From Bemisia tabaci (taxonomy: Eukaryota > Arthropoda > Insecta > Hemiptera > Aleyrodidae), in contig NC_092802.1 in NCBI RefSeq assembly GCF_918797505.1, forward strand, positions 12,853,480 through 12,917,479: a DNA stretch of 64,000 bases, in the 5' to 3' direction. Position 1 is the stretch's first letter, and every line of letters begins with the position of its first letter. This document shows positions 1 through 57,975 of the stretch, in pieces. The notes under the pieces are model-generated. The model had not been told where the DNA came from. It was given only the letters and a program-made list of their open reading frames with translations, and made no database searches. The position numbers and the translations under genes were made by a program.

Positions 1-1004
1 CTTTTGCACGCAAGAGATAGGTAAGACATAAAAATGCAATAGCAGTTGTCACGAAAAAGGATTGAACAATTGAACATGTCCGAAAAGGGATTTGTTAAGT
101 TTTAGACGGCATCTAAAAAATCCTTGATTCGAGTACAAGAAATAACGGAATTTGTGGGAGAGCAAAAATTTGAACGAAAGAGCTTTGAGTGACGTATAAT
201 CCGCATATATTTAAAGAATGGAATCGTTACAGAGAGGATAGACTATCGTGAGCACTGAAGTTGGCTGTACTTGGCGGTGAAAACCGAAGTGAAGTTTCCA
301 AGTAGGAAAAACTGGAGCTTAGCTTCGAAAAAGCTTTCAATCCATCTTGTCAATCATCATCATTGTCATTGTCATTGTCAATCCATCTTGTGCCTATATG
401 CAATAAAAAATATGATAAAGAAAGATGCGGGCGACTGATCACAGGAACGAGTCAGTGAAGCTTGCTCGATGCTTGAATTTGAAAATTCATAGAGAGAGAC
501 CGAAAATATGGGGGAAAGGGAGATGGAGAACTCTATGAATAAATGCGTTGCGTAGTAACTCCGGCTCTTTTTCCCAGACTGGCTCTCTAGTATTTGGTAG
601 TACACTGTACAAGTTAAGTTTCCTCTTTCGTATTTCTTTGGCGTCGCGGGCCCAGTTTAAGAATGACGTCAAATTTATTTTATTCCATTCCATTCCATTC
701 AGAGTTTTTCTTTTTTATCATAATGAAACGTGTTTCTTTGCATCATGGCAGAGCAGAATACATGACATGGCATTTTAAAAAAAAATTGACTGCGGTTGAA
801 ATACCAACATAACGCCCTAATCATTCGTAGGAATAGACAATCTGCGAAATTCAGTCATCTACGCTTTGTGATTATCCACACTCTTCAATACTCCATCAAT
901 TTTTGTTCTTTTAGTACATAATCATCGAGGATTTGCGATTTTTAATAACCGAAAAATCTTCTTTCAACTTGTGCTGGATAACTCGTTAATCAATCGTTCG
1001 AATA

Positions 1005-1787
1005 ATGTATCGACAACTGCTATATTTATCAGTCCTTTCGAGCTGCATCCTGCTCAGCGCTGGTGAGCTGACAGCCCCGCCATTTTCAAGGAGCACCTCA
1101 TTCAGGCATTCCTCACCCTTGAGGAGCCCGTCATTCAAGAGCACCTCACCAATGAGTAAGCCCTCGCCAGGAAGTGATCTCCCACTATGGAAGAACTCTT
1201 CGCCATCGAGGAATCCCTCACCATTGAGTGATCTCCCACTGTGGAGAAGCTTCGGACCATGGAGTGGTTTCTCATAGAGGGGTGACTCCTCACTGGAAAA
1301 AAAAACACATTGGATCTAGAGTCCAGACTCTTGAAAACATCGACAAGAAAAAATACTCTTGATTCAATTGGATTCTTGCTTAAATCAAGAACCAAGCCTC
1401 TTAGTTTGAGCTGATTTCCTTTTGATTTAAGCAAAAATCTGATTGAATCAAGACTATTTTTTCTTGTCATCGTTTTCAAGAGTCTGGACTCTAGATCCAA
1501 TGTGTTTTTTTTTCCAGTGCACCACGGCGTGCAACATGGAGTAACTCCTTACCAGAGGATAGTCCCCAATGGAGGACAGCCTCACCTCCGAGGATTCCCT
1601 CACCAAAATCCAGGGCACTTACACACCCTTCTCGACGGAAGTAGACTCTTGTAAGACAGATTCAGCCCCTCCTACGGATTCTGCTTCTGATGTAGCTGCT
1701 TCGAAGTAGAAAGCAGATGAGCTGAACGAGCACTTCAACAATGTGGTCGGGAGTTGCGAAGGCCCGAGGGGCGAGAGTCCAGCGTAG
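1005..1787 (+). pseudogene. Copy 1: decayed first exon broken by a MITE
   Basis: Near-identical to copy 2 over the signal peptide and the Ser/Pro-rich start. CAG in copies 2 and 3 has become TAG at 1275-1277 after 90 residues. A 229-bp MITE follows at 1291-1519. The remainder (1520-1787) has further changes, and similarity ends abruptly inside the codons for the ESPAYEC motif, so the toxin-like domain is missing. A 90-residue secreted peptide is still possible on paper. This is a pseudogene by comparison with copies 2 and 3. Confidence 0.75.
1291..1519. mobile_element. MITE family A, inserted in copy 1
   Basis: The ends are CACTGGAAAAAAAA and its reverse complement, and nearly the whole element is one long inverted repeat (TTGGATCTAGAGTCCAG at both ends). 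Other copies are at 32153-32381, 36880-37115 and 60724-60951. Paralogues at 4870 and 7340 provide the empty site, apart from a CAC-unit difference. Confidence 0.85.
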
Positions 1788-3688: not shown

Positions 3689-5140
3689 TCACGAAAAAGG
3701 ATTGAAATGTCCGAAAAGGGATTTGTGAGAATTTGTGGGAGAGCAAGAATTTGAACGAAAGAGCTTTGAGTGACGTATAATCCGCATATATTTAAAGAAT
3801 GGAATCGTTACAGAGAGGATAGACTATCGTGAGCACTGAAGTTGGCTGTACTTGGCGGTGAAAACCGAAGTGAAGTTTCCAAGTAGGAAAAACTGGAGCT
3901 TAGCTTCGAAAAAGCTTTCAATCCATCTTGTCAATCATCATCATTGTCATTGTCATTGTCAATCCATCTTGTGCCTATATGCAATAAAAAATATGATAAA
4001 GAAAGATGCGGGCGACTGATCACAGGAACGAGTCAGTGAAGCTTGCTCGATGCTTGAATTTGAAAATTCATAGAGAGAGACCGAAAATATGGGGGAAAGG
4101 GAGATGGAGAACTCTATGAATAAATGCGTTGCGTAGTAACTCCGGCTCTTTTTCCCAGACTGGCTCTCTAGTATTTGGTAGTACACTGTACAAGTTAAGT
4201 TTCCTCTTTCGTATTTCTTTGGCGTCGCGGGCCCAGTTTAAGAATGACGTCAAATTTATTTTATTCCATTCCATTCCATTCAGAGTTTTTCTTTTTTATC
4301 ATAATGAAACGTGTTTCTTTGCATCATGGCAGAGCAGAATACATGACATGGCATTTTAAAAAAAATTGACTGCGGTTGAAATACCAACATAACGCCCTAA
4401 TCATTCGTAGGAATAGACAATCTGCGAAATTCAGTCATCCACGCTTTGTGATTATCCACACTCTTCAATACTCCATCAATTTTTGTTTTTTTAGTACATA
4501 ATCATCGAGGATTTGCGATTTTTAATAACCGAAAAATCTTCTTTCAACTTGTGCTGGATTACTCGTTAATCAATCGTTCGAATAATGTATCGACAACTGC
4601 TATATTTATCAGTCCTTTCGAGCTGCATCCTGCTCAGCGCTGGTGAGCTGACAGCCCCGCCATTTTCAAGGAGCACCTCATTCAGGCATTCCTCACCCTT
4701 GAGGAGCCCGTCATTCAAGAGCACCTCACCAATGAGTAAGCCCTCGCCAGGAAGTGATCTCCCACTATGGAAGAACTCTTCGCCATCGAGGAATCCCTCA
4801 CCATTGAGTGATCTCCCACTGTGGAGAAGCTTCGGACCATGGAGTGGTTCCTCACAGAGGGGTAACTCCTCACCACCACGGCGTGCAGCATGGAGTAACT
4901 CCTCACCAGAGGATAGTCCCCCATGGAGGACAGCCTCACCTCCGAGGATTCCCTCACCAAAATTCAGGACACCTACACCCTTCTCGACGGAAGCAGACTC
5001 TAGTAAGACACATTCAGCCCCTCCTACGGAGTCTGCTTCTGATGTAGTTGCTTCGAAGCAGTAAGCAGATGAGCTGAACGAGCGCTTCAACAATGTGGTC
5101 GGGGGTTGCGAAGGCCCGAGGGGCGAGAGTCCAGCGTACG
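3689..5140. repeat. Segmental duplication, unit 2
   Basis: Partner of the block at 48-1787. It lacks the CACTGG-type MITE and continues past the point where unit 1 is truncated. The same upstream layout is seen, more diverged, at about 6590-7033 before copy 3. This shows an older duplication followed by a recent one. Confidence 0.88.
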
Positions 5141-5303
5141 AGTGTGCCGGAATTTTTATTCGTGGTGGCAGCAGCGATCGCAACCCGTACGCTTGGACCT
5201 TGAGCCGGTACAGCCGGGAGAAAATGTCCGTCTGCATGGGGTATCTACGTCGAGATGCGCAGTGGGCTGGGTTTCCTTACGGCTACGTCACCGGATTCAT
5301 TAT
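4585..5303 (+). pseudogene. Copy 2: first exon with an internal nonsense codon
   Basis: Paralogue of the copy 3 first exon. It has the same signal peptide (MYRQLLYLS, SAG cleavage), the same Ser/Pro-rich segment but shorter (one instead of three PPR-PSP-F blocks), and the same domain start (AYECAG, NPYAWTLS, GYVTGFI). A TAA at 5062-5064 stands where copy 3 has a Lys codon. The frame is open again on both sides, so this looks like one recent point mutation. The donor AT|GTAGGA at 5304 is kept, but no second exon lies between here and copy 3. A 159-residue secreted Ser/Pro-rich peptide could still be made. Alternatively, the exon could be spliced to the copy 3 second exon at 10104. Confidence 0.7.
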
Positions 5304-5339
5304 GTAGGAACTCCGTGTTTTATTACTTGATGGGCTTGT

Positions 5340-7033: not shown

Positions 7034-7926
7034 ATGCATAGAAAATTGCTATATTTATCATTCCTTTCCATCTGCGTCTTGCTCAGCGCTGGTGAGCAGA
7101 CAGCCCCGCCATTCCCAAGGAGCACCTCATTCAGGCATTCCTCACCCTTAAGGAGCCCGTCATTCAAGAACACCTCGCCAGGAAGTGGAATCCCAGTACT
7201 GTTTAAAAGCTCATCGCCATTTGGTGATCTCCCACTATGGAAGAACCCCTCACCATCGAGGAATCCCTCACCATTGAGCGATCTCCCACTGTGGAGAACC
7301 TCCGGACCATGGAGTGGCTCACAGAGGGGTGACTCCTCACCACCACGGCGTGCAACGTGGAGTAACTCCTCACCAGAGGATAGTCACCCATGGAGAAGTT
7401 CCTCACCTCCAAGGACTCCCTCGCCAAGATTCAAGACACCCACACCCTTCTCGACAGAAGCAGACTCAAGTGAGACAGGTTCACCTCCGAGGACCCCCTC
7501 GCCAAGATTCAGGACATCCACACCCTTCTCGACAGAAGCAGACTCAAGTGAGTCAGGTTCACCTCCGAGGACCCCCTCGCCAAGATTCAGGACACCTACT
7601 CCCTTCTCGACGGAAGGAGACTCCGGTGAGACAGATTCAGCCCCTCCTACGGATTCTGCCTCTGATGTAGCTGCTTCGAAGCGGAAGGCAGACGAGCTGA
7701 ACGAGCGTTTCAACAATGCGGTCGGGGGTTGCGAAGGCCCGAGGGGCGAGAGTCCGGCGTACGAATGTTCCGGCATTTTGATTCGCGGTGTCAGCAGCGA
7801 TCGCAACCCGTACGCTTGGACCTTGAGCAAGTACAGCCGGGAGACAATGTCCGTCTGCATGGGGTATCTACGTCGAGATGCGCAGTGGGCCGGGTTTCCA
7901 TACGGCTACGTCAGTGGATTTATCAT
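7034..7926 (+). CDS. Copy 3, exon 1: secreted Ser/Pro-rich protein with start of a bacterial toxin-like domain
   Basis: First coding exon of the only apparently intact member of the family. Residues 1-20 form a classic signal peptide (basic start, Leu/Ser core, SAG before the predicted cut). Residues 21 to about 205 are Ser/Pro/Thr-rich and likely disordered, with three copies of a block beginning PPRTPSPRF (7411-7650). A short charged stretch (KRKADELNERF) follows. From about residue 230 comes a Cys-, Trp- and Tyr-containing domain (AYECSG, NPYAWTLS, GYLRRDAQW, GYVSGFI). The ATG codon is followed at once by TAG, but AT|GTAGGA is a good splice donor. Joining at phase 2 to the acceptor before 10104 removes the stop and keeps the frame, giving 583 residues in total. 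The domain resembles secreted gamma-proteobacterial proteins (halovibrin-like or AIP56 receptor-domain-like by memory; name unsure). Secretion is inferred from the signal peptide; the function is unknown. Confidence 0.75.
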
Positions 7927-7948
7927 GTAGGAACTCCGCATTTTATTA

Positions 7949-8232
7949 TGTGCTGGTTACACGCTCAAATTTCCACCAATTTCCGATCGAATGGTGACTG
8001 GTGCGCACCATCTACCATCAAATTTCTGCGGCCTGCAAAAATTCGATGGTAGATGATGGAGCTGTGGGGCTCATCCTTCATCTGATTTCCATACAACCGC
8101 GCTTATTTCTTGCTTATTTCAATCAACACGCTGTTTTAATTAATTTTACTCGTCAATCTAGATAACTCTCGACCGCCATCTTGGTCATCGTTTTGATCGG
8201 AATTTGACGGAAATTTGAGCGTGTAACCAGGC
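7949..8232. mobile_element. MITE family K with 5-bp target duplication
   Basis: The inverted ends contain CTGGTTACACGCTCAAATTT. TATTA is duplicated at 7944-7948 and 8233-8237. The sequence after copy 2 (TTTTATTACTTGATG near 5319) is the exact empty site. Two more copies lie near 15.4-15.96 kb. Confidence 0.85.
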
Positions 8233-8264
8233 TATTACTTGATGAGTTTGTCGATGTTATTGAA

Positions 8265-8900
8265 ATGAGGACTCGAAAAAAAAGTCTCTTGGATCCGGAA
8301 TCTGGACTTCTAAGAAAATTGACGAGAAAAAATACTCTTGATTCGCAATAGGATTTTTGCTGGAACCGGAAGCCAAGCTCATTTGGACGTATTTATGCTA
8401 AAAGGAACTATGTGGAAGTGGAAAGATGGAGTGTGCTCGTGGAAGCTGGATAAGAAACTATGTAAAAAAGGATATAGTTCCTTTTGAGAAAATGTAAAAG
8501 CGGGATTTGACATTACATCAAAAAGAACTGAGCACTAACTCGTGAGCCGTGGATATGTGACAAGAGCGTTGTGGACAGGGCTCATGAGTTAAAAACCGAC
8601 GAGACCTAGTCGTCGTCGCTCGTGTCGCGCCATGTACCCGATCCTCACCGCTGACGTCACCGGCGCTTTAAAAGTCCCATTCGTTCTTATGGCCCAAGCA
8701 CTAACGAGCCACACCCCATTTTTCCACTTGCACATAGTTCTATTTCGCATAAATGCGTCCATTTTAAGTTTAGTCAAGCTTGATTTCAGCTGATTTCATT
8801 TTGATTCAAGCAGAAATCCGATTGAATCGTGAGTGTTTTTCGTGTCAAATTGTTTAGAAGTCTATGGGCTCTGGATCCAAGAGACTTTTTTCTTAGTGTA
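8265..8900. mobile_element. MITE family A' interrupted by a nested inverted-repeat element
   Basis: The outer element is A'. It is split near 8380 by an element whose ends are TGGACGTATTTATGC and GCATAAATGCGTCCA (about 8381-8762), related to family H. The nested element includes GC-rich sequence near 8590-8680. Confidence 0.65.
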
Positions 8901-9477
8901 CTTTTCTGCTTCGGAACCAGCCTAATCCGTTAAGGGGGTCTTCCAGTAAAATTTTAAAACAATTGAAAAATCTCGGAAAAAATGTTGAGCTCTTCACTGG
9001 AAAATTGATCGAATTTATTCATTTCAAAGATGAAAGATATATGTTACGCACTTAATTAGAAAAACCTCTCAAATTTTTGGGAAGCTGTAGCAGTTTTCTA
9101 AGATGGGTGGAGCAAACTTCTAGGAGGAAGAGTGGGACCCTAGGTTATCTCCTATTTCCACCTTTGCTCGGGAGGAAGAGTTTTTTCACACTTTCTTCAG
9201 GGGGCCTCATAAAATCAGACGCTGTTAAATTTGACATTTTAGAATGATAACCTTTGCCATGTGAGACATAATCGTGGCAGAATAATCATTTTTCTTGTTC
9301 AAACAAAATGAGAAGTCTGCGCAGTTTCATTCTTTTTCATTCTTTAATGGCTGACAGTGCGAGCTTTAGGAACTTTAACTCTATGGGGCCATCATACTAA
9401 ATTAGGAGACTTGTTCGATAATTTTGGAATTTACAAAAAGAAGGCAGCAAGCGTTTTTCTGTATCGAGATAGTAATA

Positions 9478-9812
9478 CCAACAATAAAAACACATTAAAG
9501 TACAAAAACAATTTGGCATATGAGGCTGAGGAGAAATGAAACAAACCAGAACGTTCCTGGCCAGTTATACGCCCATTCTCAACTGGAAAAAAAAGCTAAA
9601 AATGTAAAAATTAAAACGACAAAATGTGTAAGCAACTCAATTCTTGTTTAACATGCAACTCATTTCTTGATTTAATTTTTACATTTTTAGCTTTTTCTTC
9701 CAGTTGAGAATGGGCATGTGACTAGCCCGAAACGTCCTGGTTTGTTTTATGTCTCCTCAGTCTTGTATACCCATTTGTTTCTGTATTTTAATGTGTTTGT
9801 ATTGTTCTCTGC
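9478..9812. mobile_element. Long foldback element (family C core)
   Basis: Arms of more than 100 bp pair with each other. GCTAAAAATGTAAAAATTAAA near 9595 faces its complement near 9670, and pairing continues outward through CAAACCAG(A/G)ACG and GAGGAGA to AACACATTAAA. A transcript would fold into one long hairpin. No coding sequence was recognised. Confidence 0.75.
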
Positions 9813-9848
9813 ATTTGGTTTATTGTGTCTCATCTCTCTTTTGTCACG

Positions 9849-10065
9849 ATCACCGAAAAAAATAATATGCTGTTTTAGCACCGAGGATGTCAAAGTGGTC
9901 TAGTGTCTAGTGGTCCCAAGATGCTGCCTTTACAGCCCCCGCAGTTAATTTTACATCCTGTGAATGCAAATTCAACTGCGTGGGCAATCAAGGCAACATA
10001 TTAGGATCACCAGACACACTTTTTACATCCTAGATGCTAAGACAGCATATTATTTTTTCAGTGAT
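9849..10065. mobile_element. MITE family D in the copy 3 intron
   Basis: Inverted ends ATCACCGAAAAAAATAATATG and complement; AGATGTAAAA-type motifs inside. It ends about 40 bp before the exon 2 acceptor. Confidence 0.7.
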
Positions 10066-10103
10066 AGTAATACCTCAAATCAATTTTTCTTGTTCTGACA
10101 TAG

Positions 10104-10962
10104 GTACCCGCAATCGAAGACCCCATGGACGAAGACCAAGACAGGGGTCATCTGCGCCTTCCCGCTAGACGCGCACTCTGACGAACGAACCGGGAAATAC
10201 GCTTGCGGGGAGAGTCAGCAGGACACTATAGGAGAGAGCGGTCATTGCCATGCTCAAGGCATCTTCTCGTTCAGGGATTGGCTGGCTCATTATCACCGCG
10301 TCAGCTTTAATTTCTCCCACACCCAGTGCGGCTTTGATATGACCGCGCCGCAAGCTCCAGGCCTGTTCAGGACCTTTCTAAAAGCCTCGAATTTCGTGCA
10401 GAACGAGCCTTTCGACCTCAAGAATAACGAGATTCTGGTTTACGCCTGGAACGAGAACGATGTTGCAAGAATCCCGATCGAAGCGTTTTTCTTTACCGTC
10501 GGAAGCGAGGAGGGGCGGCTTAGTGCCAGGAGGTTTCAGCGGGATTTTAAACGAGCCAGTGGCGGGGAGACGATTCCAATCGTGGGTATCCAGTTTCCAA
10601 AACCGAATGTCCGGGAATTTAAGGTGTATCCGATGGATGAAGCCAAGCTCATCACGGAGAGAATTGCACGATCCACGCCGGTGAACCCATGGTTGATGCG
10701 TTCTCCCAGTAGAGGAGGATCACATGATTTTTCGTCGTTATTCGCGAGCCCTTCTGCTAGAGGAGGATCACATGATTTCGCTTCGTTATTCGCGAACCAT
10801 TCTGATAGAGGAGGATCACATGATTTTTCGTCGTTGTTCGCGAACCCTTCTGATAGAGGAGGATCACATGATTTCGCCTCGTTATTCGCAAACCCCTCTG
10901 CTAGAGGAGGATTCTCGCCACGATTTGGCAGCTCCCCTAGTAATAGATTTATCATGCAGTAA
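10104..10962 (+). CDS. Copy 3, exon 2: rest of the toxin-like domain and a repeat tail
   Basis: Second and last exon of the gene that starts at 7034. It follows a TTCTGACATAG acceptor, begins with the third base of a codon and is open to TAA at 10960. The frame continues upstream of the internal ATG at 10339 without a stop, so that ATG is not the start. Visible motifs are VICAFPLD (residues 313-320), cysteines at 315, 332, 346 and 373, QCGFDM (372-377), YAWNEND and RIPIEAFFF, and IPIVGIQFPKP near 455-465. These fall in the order expected for the second half of the bacterial domain begun in exon 1. The last 80 residues are four 16-residue repeats (RGGSHDF[S/A]SLFA) and a short Phe/Ser-rich end. 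No second transmembrane helix is seen, so the product should be soluble and exported. Confidence 0.72.
10711..10902 (+). repeat. 48-bp tandem repeat, four in-frame copies
   Basis: Four head-to-tail 48-bp units inside exon 2 encode RGGSHDFxSLFAxxSx four times, and a fifth partial unit (RGGFSPRF) follows. The units differ mainly at the Ser/Ala residue after HDF and at the last positions. No such tail is expected in the bacterial domain, so it was probably added in the insect. Confidence 0.9.
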
Positions 10963-57490: not shown

Positions 57491-57700
57491 CATTGAAAAA
57501 AAAGAATCTTAAATTTGCCGCCAAGAGGTATTTCTTCTTAAATCAAGAATTTTTCTGGTTAATACATGCTACTTGTTTGCCTAACCCGAACATTATTTTT
57601 CTTGTATCAAGAGAAAGTCAGTTTAAAGCAAGATAAAAAAGATTCTTGGCGGCAAATTCAAGAATCATCATGCTTGATCCAAGCTACTTTTTTTTCAGTG
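57491..57700. mobile_element. MITE family B next to a cyclase splice donor
   Basis: Ends CATTGAAAAAAAAGAATC and TTTTTTTTCAGTG. It ends at 57,700, 13 bp from the minus-strand donor at 57,713. Its poly-T end then lies just inside the intron. Confidence 0.8.
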
Positions 57701-57713
57701 ATAAGCGACTCAC

Positions 57714-57888
57714 CAGAGTGAATTCCGATTCGGAGTTTGAGCTTGTCGTCAGGTCTGTGCTTTATGGTGAAAGTCTTCACAGCCTTCAGTAACTCTAGAG
57801 ACATCAGCGCGATTTCTCTCGCGTGTTCTAGACCGTTGCGCACGGGGAGCCCTGACACTACCATGTACGCATCACCGATTGTCTCCAC
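57714..57888 (-). CDS. Guanylate cyclase, first exon seen (catalytic domain)
   Basis: A 175-bp exon coding [15 protein letters not shown], the following helix ([17 protein letters not shown]) and [10 protein letters not shown]. The Glu of VETIGD is the guanine-specifying residue and the Asp is a metal ligand by family knowledge. Acceptor TCTTTTGTCCAG, donor CACTCTG|GTGAGT, exit phase 1, joining the exon at 37380 across 20.3 kb. The preceding exon, which should end in the segment just before VET, was not found up to 64,000, so the gene continues beyond the window. A family B MITE ends 13 bp after the donor. Confidence 0.92.
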
Positions 57889-57975
57889 CTGGACAAAAGA
57901 AATAAACATCCAAAAATTTAAACAAAGCCATCGAACAAGAAAAACAACAAACCCATCGTATAGGCTAAAGTATAT

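Follow-up and report, generated by a model that had tools for sequence, protein, structure and literature searches.

A 64,000-nucleotide stretch of the genome of the whitefly Bemisia tabaci (NCBI RefSeq assembly GCF_918797505.1, contig NC_092802.1, positions 12,853,480 to 12,917,479 of the forward strand; hereafter the window, in whose coordinates all positions are given) carries a two-exon gene with a predicted product of 583 residues (by count) that contains a homologue of the bacterial halovibrins. We read the product, with a probability of roughly 0.7, as a secreted whitefly protein whose halovibrin core was derived from Pseudomonadota by horizontal transfer and whose domain, of ADP-ribosyltransferase (ART) fold, would use nicotinamide adenine dinucleotide (NAD) and act on another organism. 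The gene is laid out as follows, with residues numbered here and throughout as in P0013, a B. tabaci predicted protein of 557 amino acids encoded on a 42.75-Mb contig.

7034..7926, plus strand: coding exon 1, comprising a signal-like hydrophobic start, a Ser/Pro/Thr-rich repeat tail and the first third of the halovibrin-like domain; drawn from its open frame, the donor at 7927, tblastn matches to bacterial halovibrins and identity to P0013
7034..7093, plus strand: signal-peptide-like N-terminus (basic start, hydrophobic core), from inspection of the translation and helix 2-18 in the structure model
7403..7639, plus strand: three 78-bp (26-residue) repeats of the N-terminal tail, in a copy number unlike that of P0013
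7649..7926, plus strand: first part of the halovibrin-like domain, carrying R225, a presumed NAD residue, and the site where Ser-Phe-Ser is altered
7927..10103, plus strand: phase-2 GT-AG intron of 2,177 bp, fitting the homologues exactly at the join and holding repeat-element material and two foldback stretches
10104..10962, plus strand: coding exon 2 with stop, holding the remainder of the halovibrin-like domain, the presumed NAD residues D294 and E381, and a repeat tail
10710..10912, plus strand: about four 48-bp (16-residue) repeats of the C-terminal tail

From the ATG at 7034 the reading frame is free of stops to 7926, and the earliest in-frame stop, a TAG at 7928, overlaps the splice donor (cat/GTAGGA). 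The preliminary description of this DNA, made from its letters alone, had assigned that apparent stop to the donor, and it had also proposed that the phases agree and that exon 2 is open up to its acceptor; all of this is borne out. Exon 1 ends in phase 2 with AT and exon 2 starts with G, restoring one ATG codon across 7926/10104, while the second frame runs from 10099, just 5' of the acceptor (ttctgacatag/GTACCC, 10103/10104), to the stop ending at 10962. Plasmid records were searched by tblastn with each exon separately. Exon 2 alone retrieved a Serratia marcescens halovibrin (E = 3e-18, 32% identity) along with matches in Salmonella bongori, Tistrella, Vibrio and Cedecea, and the end of exon 1 alone retrieved the same four loci as exon 2 (E = 1e-12 to 7e-7). 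Because each exon by itself matches bacterial halovibrin loci, the split gene is not a product of chance. Four loci have matches running up to both exon edges (two near-identical S. marcescens plasmid copies, one S. bongori plasmid and one Tistrella plasmid), and in 4 of 4 precisely 3 bases separate the two matches, equal to the split AT/G codon. Five Vibrio records and one Cedecea record, also shared by the two exons, fall outside this comparison, as at least one of their two matches stops short of its edge. Across the eight residues around the join, 119 of 119 homologues have zero indels. P0013 is identical to the window product over 285/285 residues of exon 2 and 271/271 aligned residues of exon 1, with one 26-residue repeat fewer; it and a further B. 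tabaci predicted protein, P0015 (541 amino acids, "PREDICTED: uncharacterized protein LOC109044707"), both read through the same join in public predictions. Comparison of sequences confirms the two-exon gene, with its splicing predicted.

A profile search returned 144 proteins at E <= 0.001, of which 120 were listed and are considered here. Among the matches listed, the named relatives outside B. tabaci are bacteria, several of them annotated as halovibrin, from Serratia, Photorhabdus, Xenorhabdus, Yersinia, Erwinia, Pseudomonas, Vibrio, Bordetella, Burkholderia, Aeromonas and other genera, and the whitefly domain reaches at most 36.5% identity with proteins from outside the whitefly. A scan of species genomes, confined to bacteria and archaea, yielded 51 loci, every title being Pseudomonadota and some insect-associated (Photorhabdus, Xenorhabdus, Commensalibacter). 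The whole whitefly domain (∼273 residues) is homologous to halovibrins HvnA/HvnB, known from Vibrio fischeri, Serratia, Photorhabdus, Xenorhabdus and Pseudomonas, and shares with them six near-invariant cysteines (207, 219, 289, 306, 320 and 347) and R225, D294 and E381, which are present in 118, 112 and 101 of the 119 homologues; R254, D256, R300 and N380 are likewise kept. With both exons and the profile search leading to halovibrins, sequence comparison confirms the homology and the halovibrin name that had been offered with hesitation for this domain. The suggestion of an insect gene built on a toxin-like bacterial domain also stood, in the form of an intron-split B. tabaci gene with halovibrin homologues in bacteria, as did the gamma-proteobacterial affinity, with Serratia, Salmonella, Vibrio, Photorhabdus and Xenorhabdus among the matches. 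Several relatives, P0010, P0016 and P0017 included, have two halovibrin domains per protein. P0009, P0018 and P0013 bear the source names "N-acyl homoserine lactonase" and "Enterotoxin", which are probably automatic misnaming.

The gene is part of an insect chromosome and has a predicted spliceosomal intron, and the named relatives among the matches listed, from the profile search and the bacterial and archaeal genome scan alike, are bacterial or from B. tabaci. B. tabaci has a paralogous protein, P0126 (409 amino acids), which is encoded on a contig of the same size as that of P0013 and is 52% identical, and a JGI metagenome protein (P0127, 307 amino acids, 1,349-bp contig) is 42% identical to the whitefly protein. 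The window protein, P0126 and P0127 form a single clade at 100/100, whose stem measures 1.3 changes per column (bootstrap not settled). A phylogeny with bacterial relatives had been proposed in the preliminary description. The two trees made differ in the neighbor of the whitefly clade: the first places P0016 there at 96/76, whereas the second, a quick tree, places L021 there at 78, next to the midpoint root, and joins P0016 to Commensalibacter. Acquisition from bacteria by horizontal transfer is nevertheless well supported, by distribution and gene anatomy and not by secure tree nesting, and the trees do not fix the donor branch. The earlier view of an old transfer stands as to transfer, with its age plausible (paralogs ∼52% alike, a long stem) and undated. 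That bacterial DNA of a symbiont or an assembly contaminant was taken for insect DNA might be suggested by nearest relatives that, besides the whitefly and one metagenome protein, are bacterial. We regard this as extremely improbable, given an intron within the domain that fits the homologues exactly, the placement of P0013 on its 42.75-Mb B. tabaci contig and two diverged whitefly paralogs, together with two features of the window: a guanylate cyclase catalytic-domain exon of an ordinary animal gene (57658-57975, minus strand; PF00211, E = 4.4e-16) and intron repeats that also occur elsewhere, the stretch 7949-8232 being 93% like 15957-15675 on the opposite strand. P0127 reads through the intron site.

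Among solved structures, the best fold match of both structure models is the ADP-ribosyltransferase CteC, an injected effector of Chromobacterium violaceum that modifies Thr66 of ubiquitin and has a helical insertion for binding it. The models accordingly predict an ART fold for the whitefly domain, a protein that has no sequence match to CteC: a profile of 69 sequences gave 0 matches at E <= 1 among PDB chains, CteC included. An Arg, an Asp and a Glu of the whitefly domain follow the chain order of the required residues of CteC, an equivalence drawn by inference, and the NAD role of R225, D294 and E381 is presumed from CteC on that footing. By chain order the R and E of the CteC R-S-E motif are kept, and the presumed Ser site is Cys in the whitefly. 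Halovibrins, for which we found no dedicated model in Pfam or NCBIfam and no sequence-matched solved structure, are linked by this prediction to the ART fold, making the mechanism directly testable. The preliminary description had offered a second candidate, the receptor-binding domain of AIP56. Genes with the AIP56 B-domain are indeed reported in drosophilids and gall midges, according to an account in PMC8455502, and the whitefly gene would on this view resemble those known transfers to flies. The whole-domain homologues are halovibrins, however, and AIP56 is absent from the sequence and fold search lists of solved structures (absence from such lists being no proof), where the single clear fold match is CteC. 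A solved AIP56 structure exists; we give this relationship very little credence. The best viral fold match of model md9bcf691732b is G8DH01 (E = 6.7e-6), a possible viral relative of ART fold.

As we envisage it, a halovibrin core of ∼273 residues passed by horizontal transfer from Pseudomonadota to the whitefly lineage, where it now has a signal-like start, an intron that splits the domain, a repeat-rich tail at either end and a paralog that has diverged. The protein would be secreted and held by disulfides, and NAD+ would be bound in a cleft around R225, D294 and E381. The domain might then act like the halovibrins of V. fischeri and hydrolyze NAD+, or it might move ADP-ribose to a target; in either case it would act on a plant, a microbe or a parasitoid; tissue and target are guesses. 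Halovibrin was initially described as an ADP-ribosyltransferase and was subsequently reassigned as an NAD+ glycohydrolase, as told in PMC3510237 and indicated by the title of Stabb et al. 2001.

Several observations weigh against this reading. The TM-scores of the models to CteC are low, and the whitefly clade shifts between trees without reaching secure nesting among bacteria. Moreover, Ser-Phe-Ser at 249-251, found in 102, 119 and 112 of 119 homologues (a conserved feature within this set, not a published definition of the family), is replaced in the whitefly by Cys-Met-Gly; for this reason the protein is termed a diverged halovibrin homologue by sequence, not a proven halovibrin. In contrast to HvnA/HvnB, its gene also belongs to an insect genome, contains an intron and encodes repeat tails. 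The same replacement, which includes a position that is Phe in 119/119 homologues, could mean that a protein of the same bacterial origin has lost catalysis and now serves, once secreted, for binding, as a decoy or in a structural role, with its ART fold kept and its repeat tails sharing the work, and the long whitefly branch and repeat-rich tails point the same way. Against such a loss, all seven residues R225, D294, E381, R254, D256, R300 and N380 are retained, 17 of the 119 homologues likewise lack Ser at 249, and the CteC motif serine, S97, makes no apparent NAD+ contact in the account given by PMC10810742. We consider lost catalysis possible though rather unlikely, and live catalysis by the whitefly domain slightly favored over its absence.

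The whitefly protein is probably secreted, to judge from the hydrophobic N-terminus seen on inspection and the modeled helix 2-18. Ser, Pro and Thr make up 54% of the 191 residues of the N-terminal tail, and neither tail contains a cysteine. P0013 and P0015 disagree at 2/273 residues within the domain and at 12/268 in the rest (Fisher p = 0.006; one pair only), which fits constraint on the domain relative to the tails in this single protein pair.

Bacterial and phage toxin genes have entered insect nuclear genomes before: cdtB, aip56 and others are described in flies and aphids, several with introns (PMC8455502), in domains that differ from the halovibrin-like domain of the whitefly. The main text of PMC8455502 has 0 occurrences of Bemisia, whitefly or halovibrin. 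A further parallel is pierisin-1 of the cabbage white butterfly, an insect-made ADP-ribosylating toxin whose gene is, to our knowledge, unrelated to that of the whitefly. For pierisin-1, a defense against parasitoid wasps has been proposed, as related in PMC3634060. In B. tabaci, PMC5157087 counts 142 transfers, 64 of them bacterial and many of the bacterial ones with introns, and assigns the genes of bacterial origin chiefly to amino acid, vitamin and lipid metabolism; at least 170 transfers are given in the account of PMC13297706. Literature searches found nothing joining Bemisia tabaci and halovibrin (the gene may already stand in the PMC5157087 supplementary list of 64), nothing on LOC109044707 and, judged by title, nothing on this gene under Bemisia tabaci and ADP-ribosyltransferase. 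Among the many genes that this important crop pest has gained horizontally, a toxin-like NAD enzyme that is secreted would differ in kind from the metabolic ones and would be a candidate effector for saliva or defense. A bolder and decidedly tentative extension is that whiteflies domesticated a bacterial halovibrin, the first in an animal, as a small family (at least two paralogs with repeat-rich tails) of secreted NAD-targeting effectors, injected with saliva or directed at parasitoids or microbes, and that halovibrins are all CteC-like target-modifying ADP-ribosyltransferases and not simple NADases.

Database searches beyond these added little. Pfam and NCBIfam gave zero matches to the halovibrin domain of three bacterial halovibrins tested, one of which has a DUF2599 domain behind it, and Pfam, NCBIfam and PHROGs gave nothing on the two whitefly exon pieces except a sub-threshold SAP18 in Pfam. 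PDB sequence searches returned chance-level matches. Of 65 candidates from a protein search with exon 2 alone, 0 reached E <= 0.001; phage records gave two matches at E ∼5, and Rfam over the whole window zero. Halovibrin genes L056 and L057, on viral-collection contigs, may be prophage-borne, as their domain is identical to that of Commensalibacter genomes L032 and L050.

Upstream of the gene lie two broken copies of its first part:

148..1786, plus strand: shorter copy, covering a portion of exon 1 besides the upstream region; earliest in-frame stop at 1275
3729..5325, plus strand: copy with the upstream region, exon 1 and the start of the intron; first in-frame stop at 5062

The two are 99.3% alike over 1,146 bp and are a recent tandem duplication; a second copy of exon 2 is absent from the window at E <= 1. 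Two broken copies within the same 7 kb could suggest that the gene itself is a pseudogene or an unexpressed relic of an old transfer, yet both of its exons are open over 583 codons and its domain varies less than its tails in the P0013 and P0015 pair, making a relic improbable. As alternative first exons, the copies are excluded by the early in-frame stops in both. The foldback stretches of the intron lie at 9480-9806 and 9849-10068.
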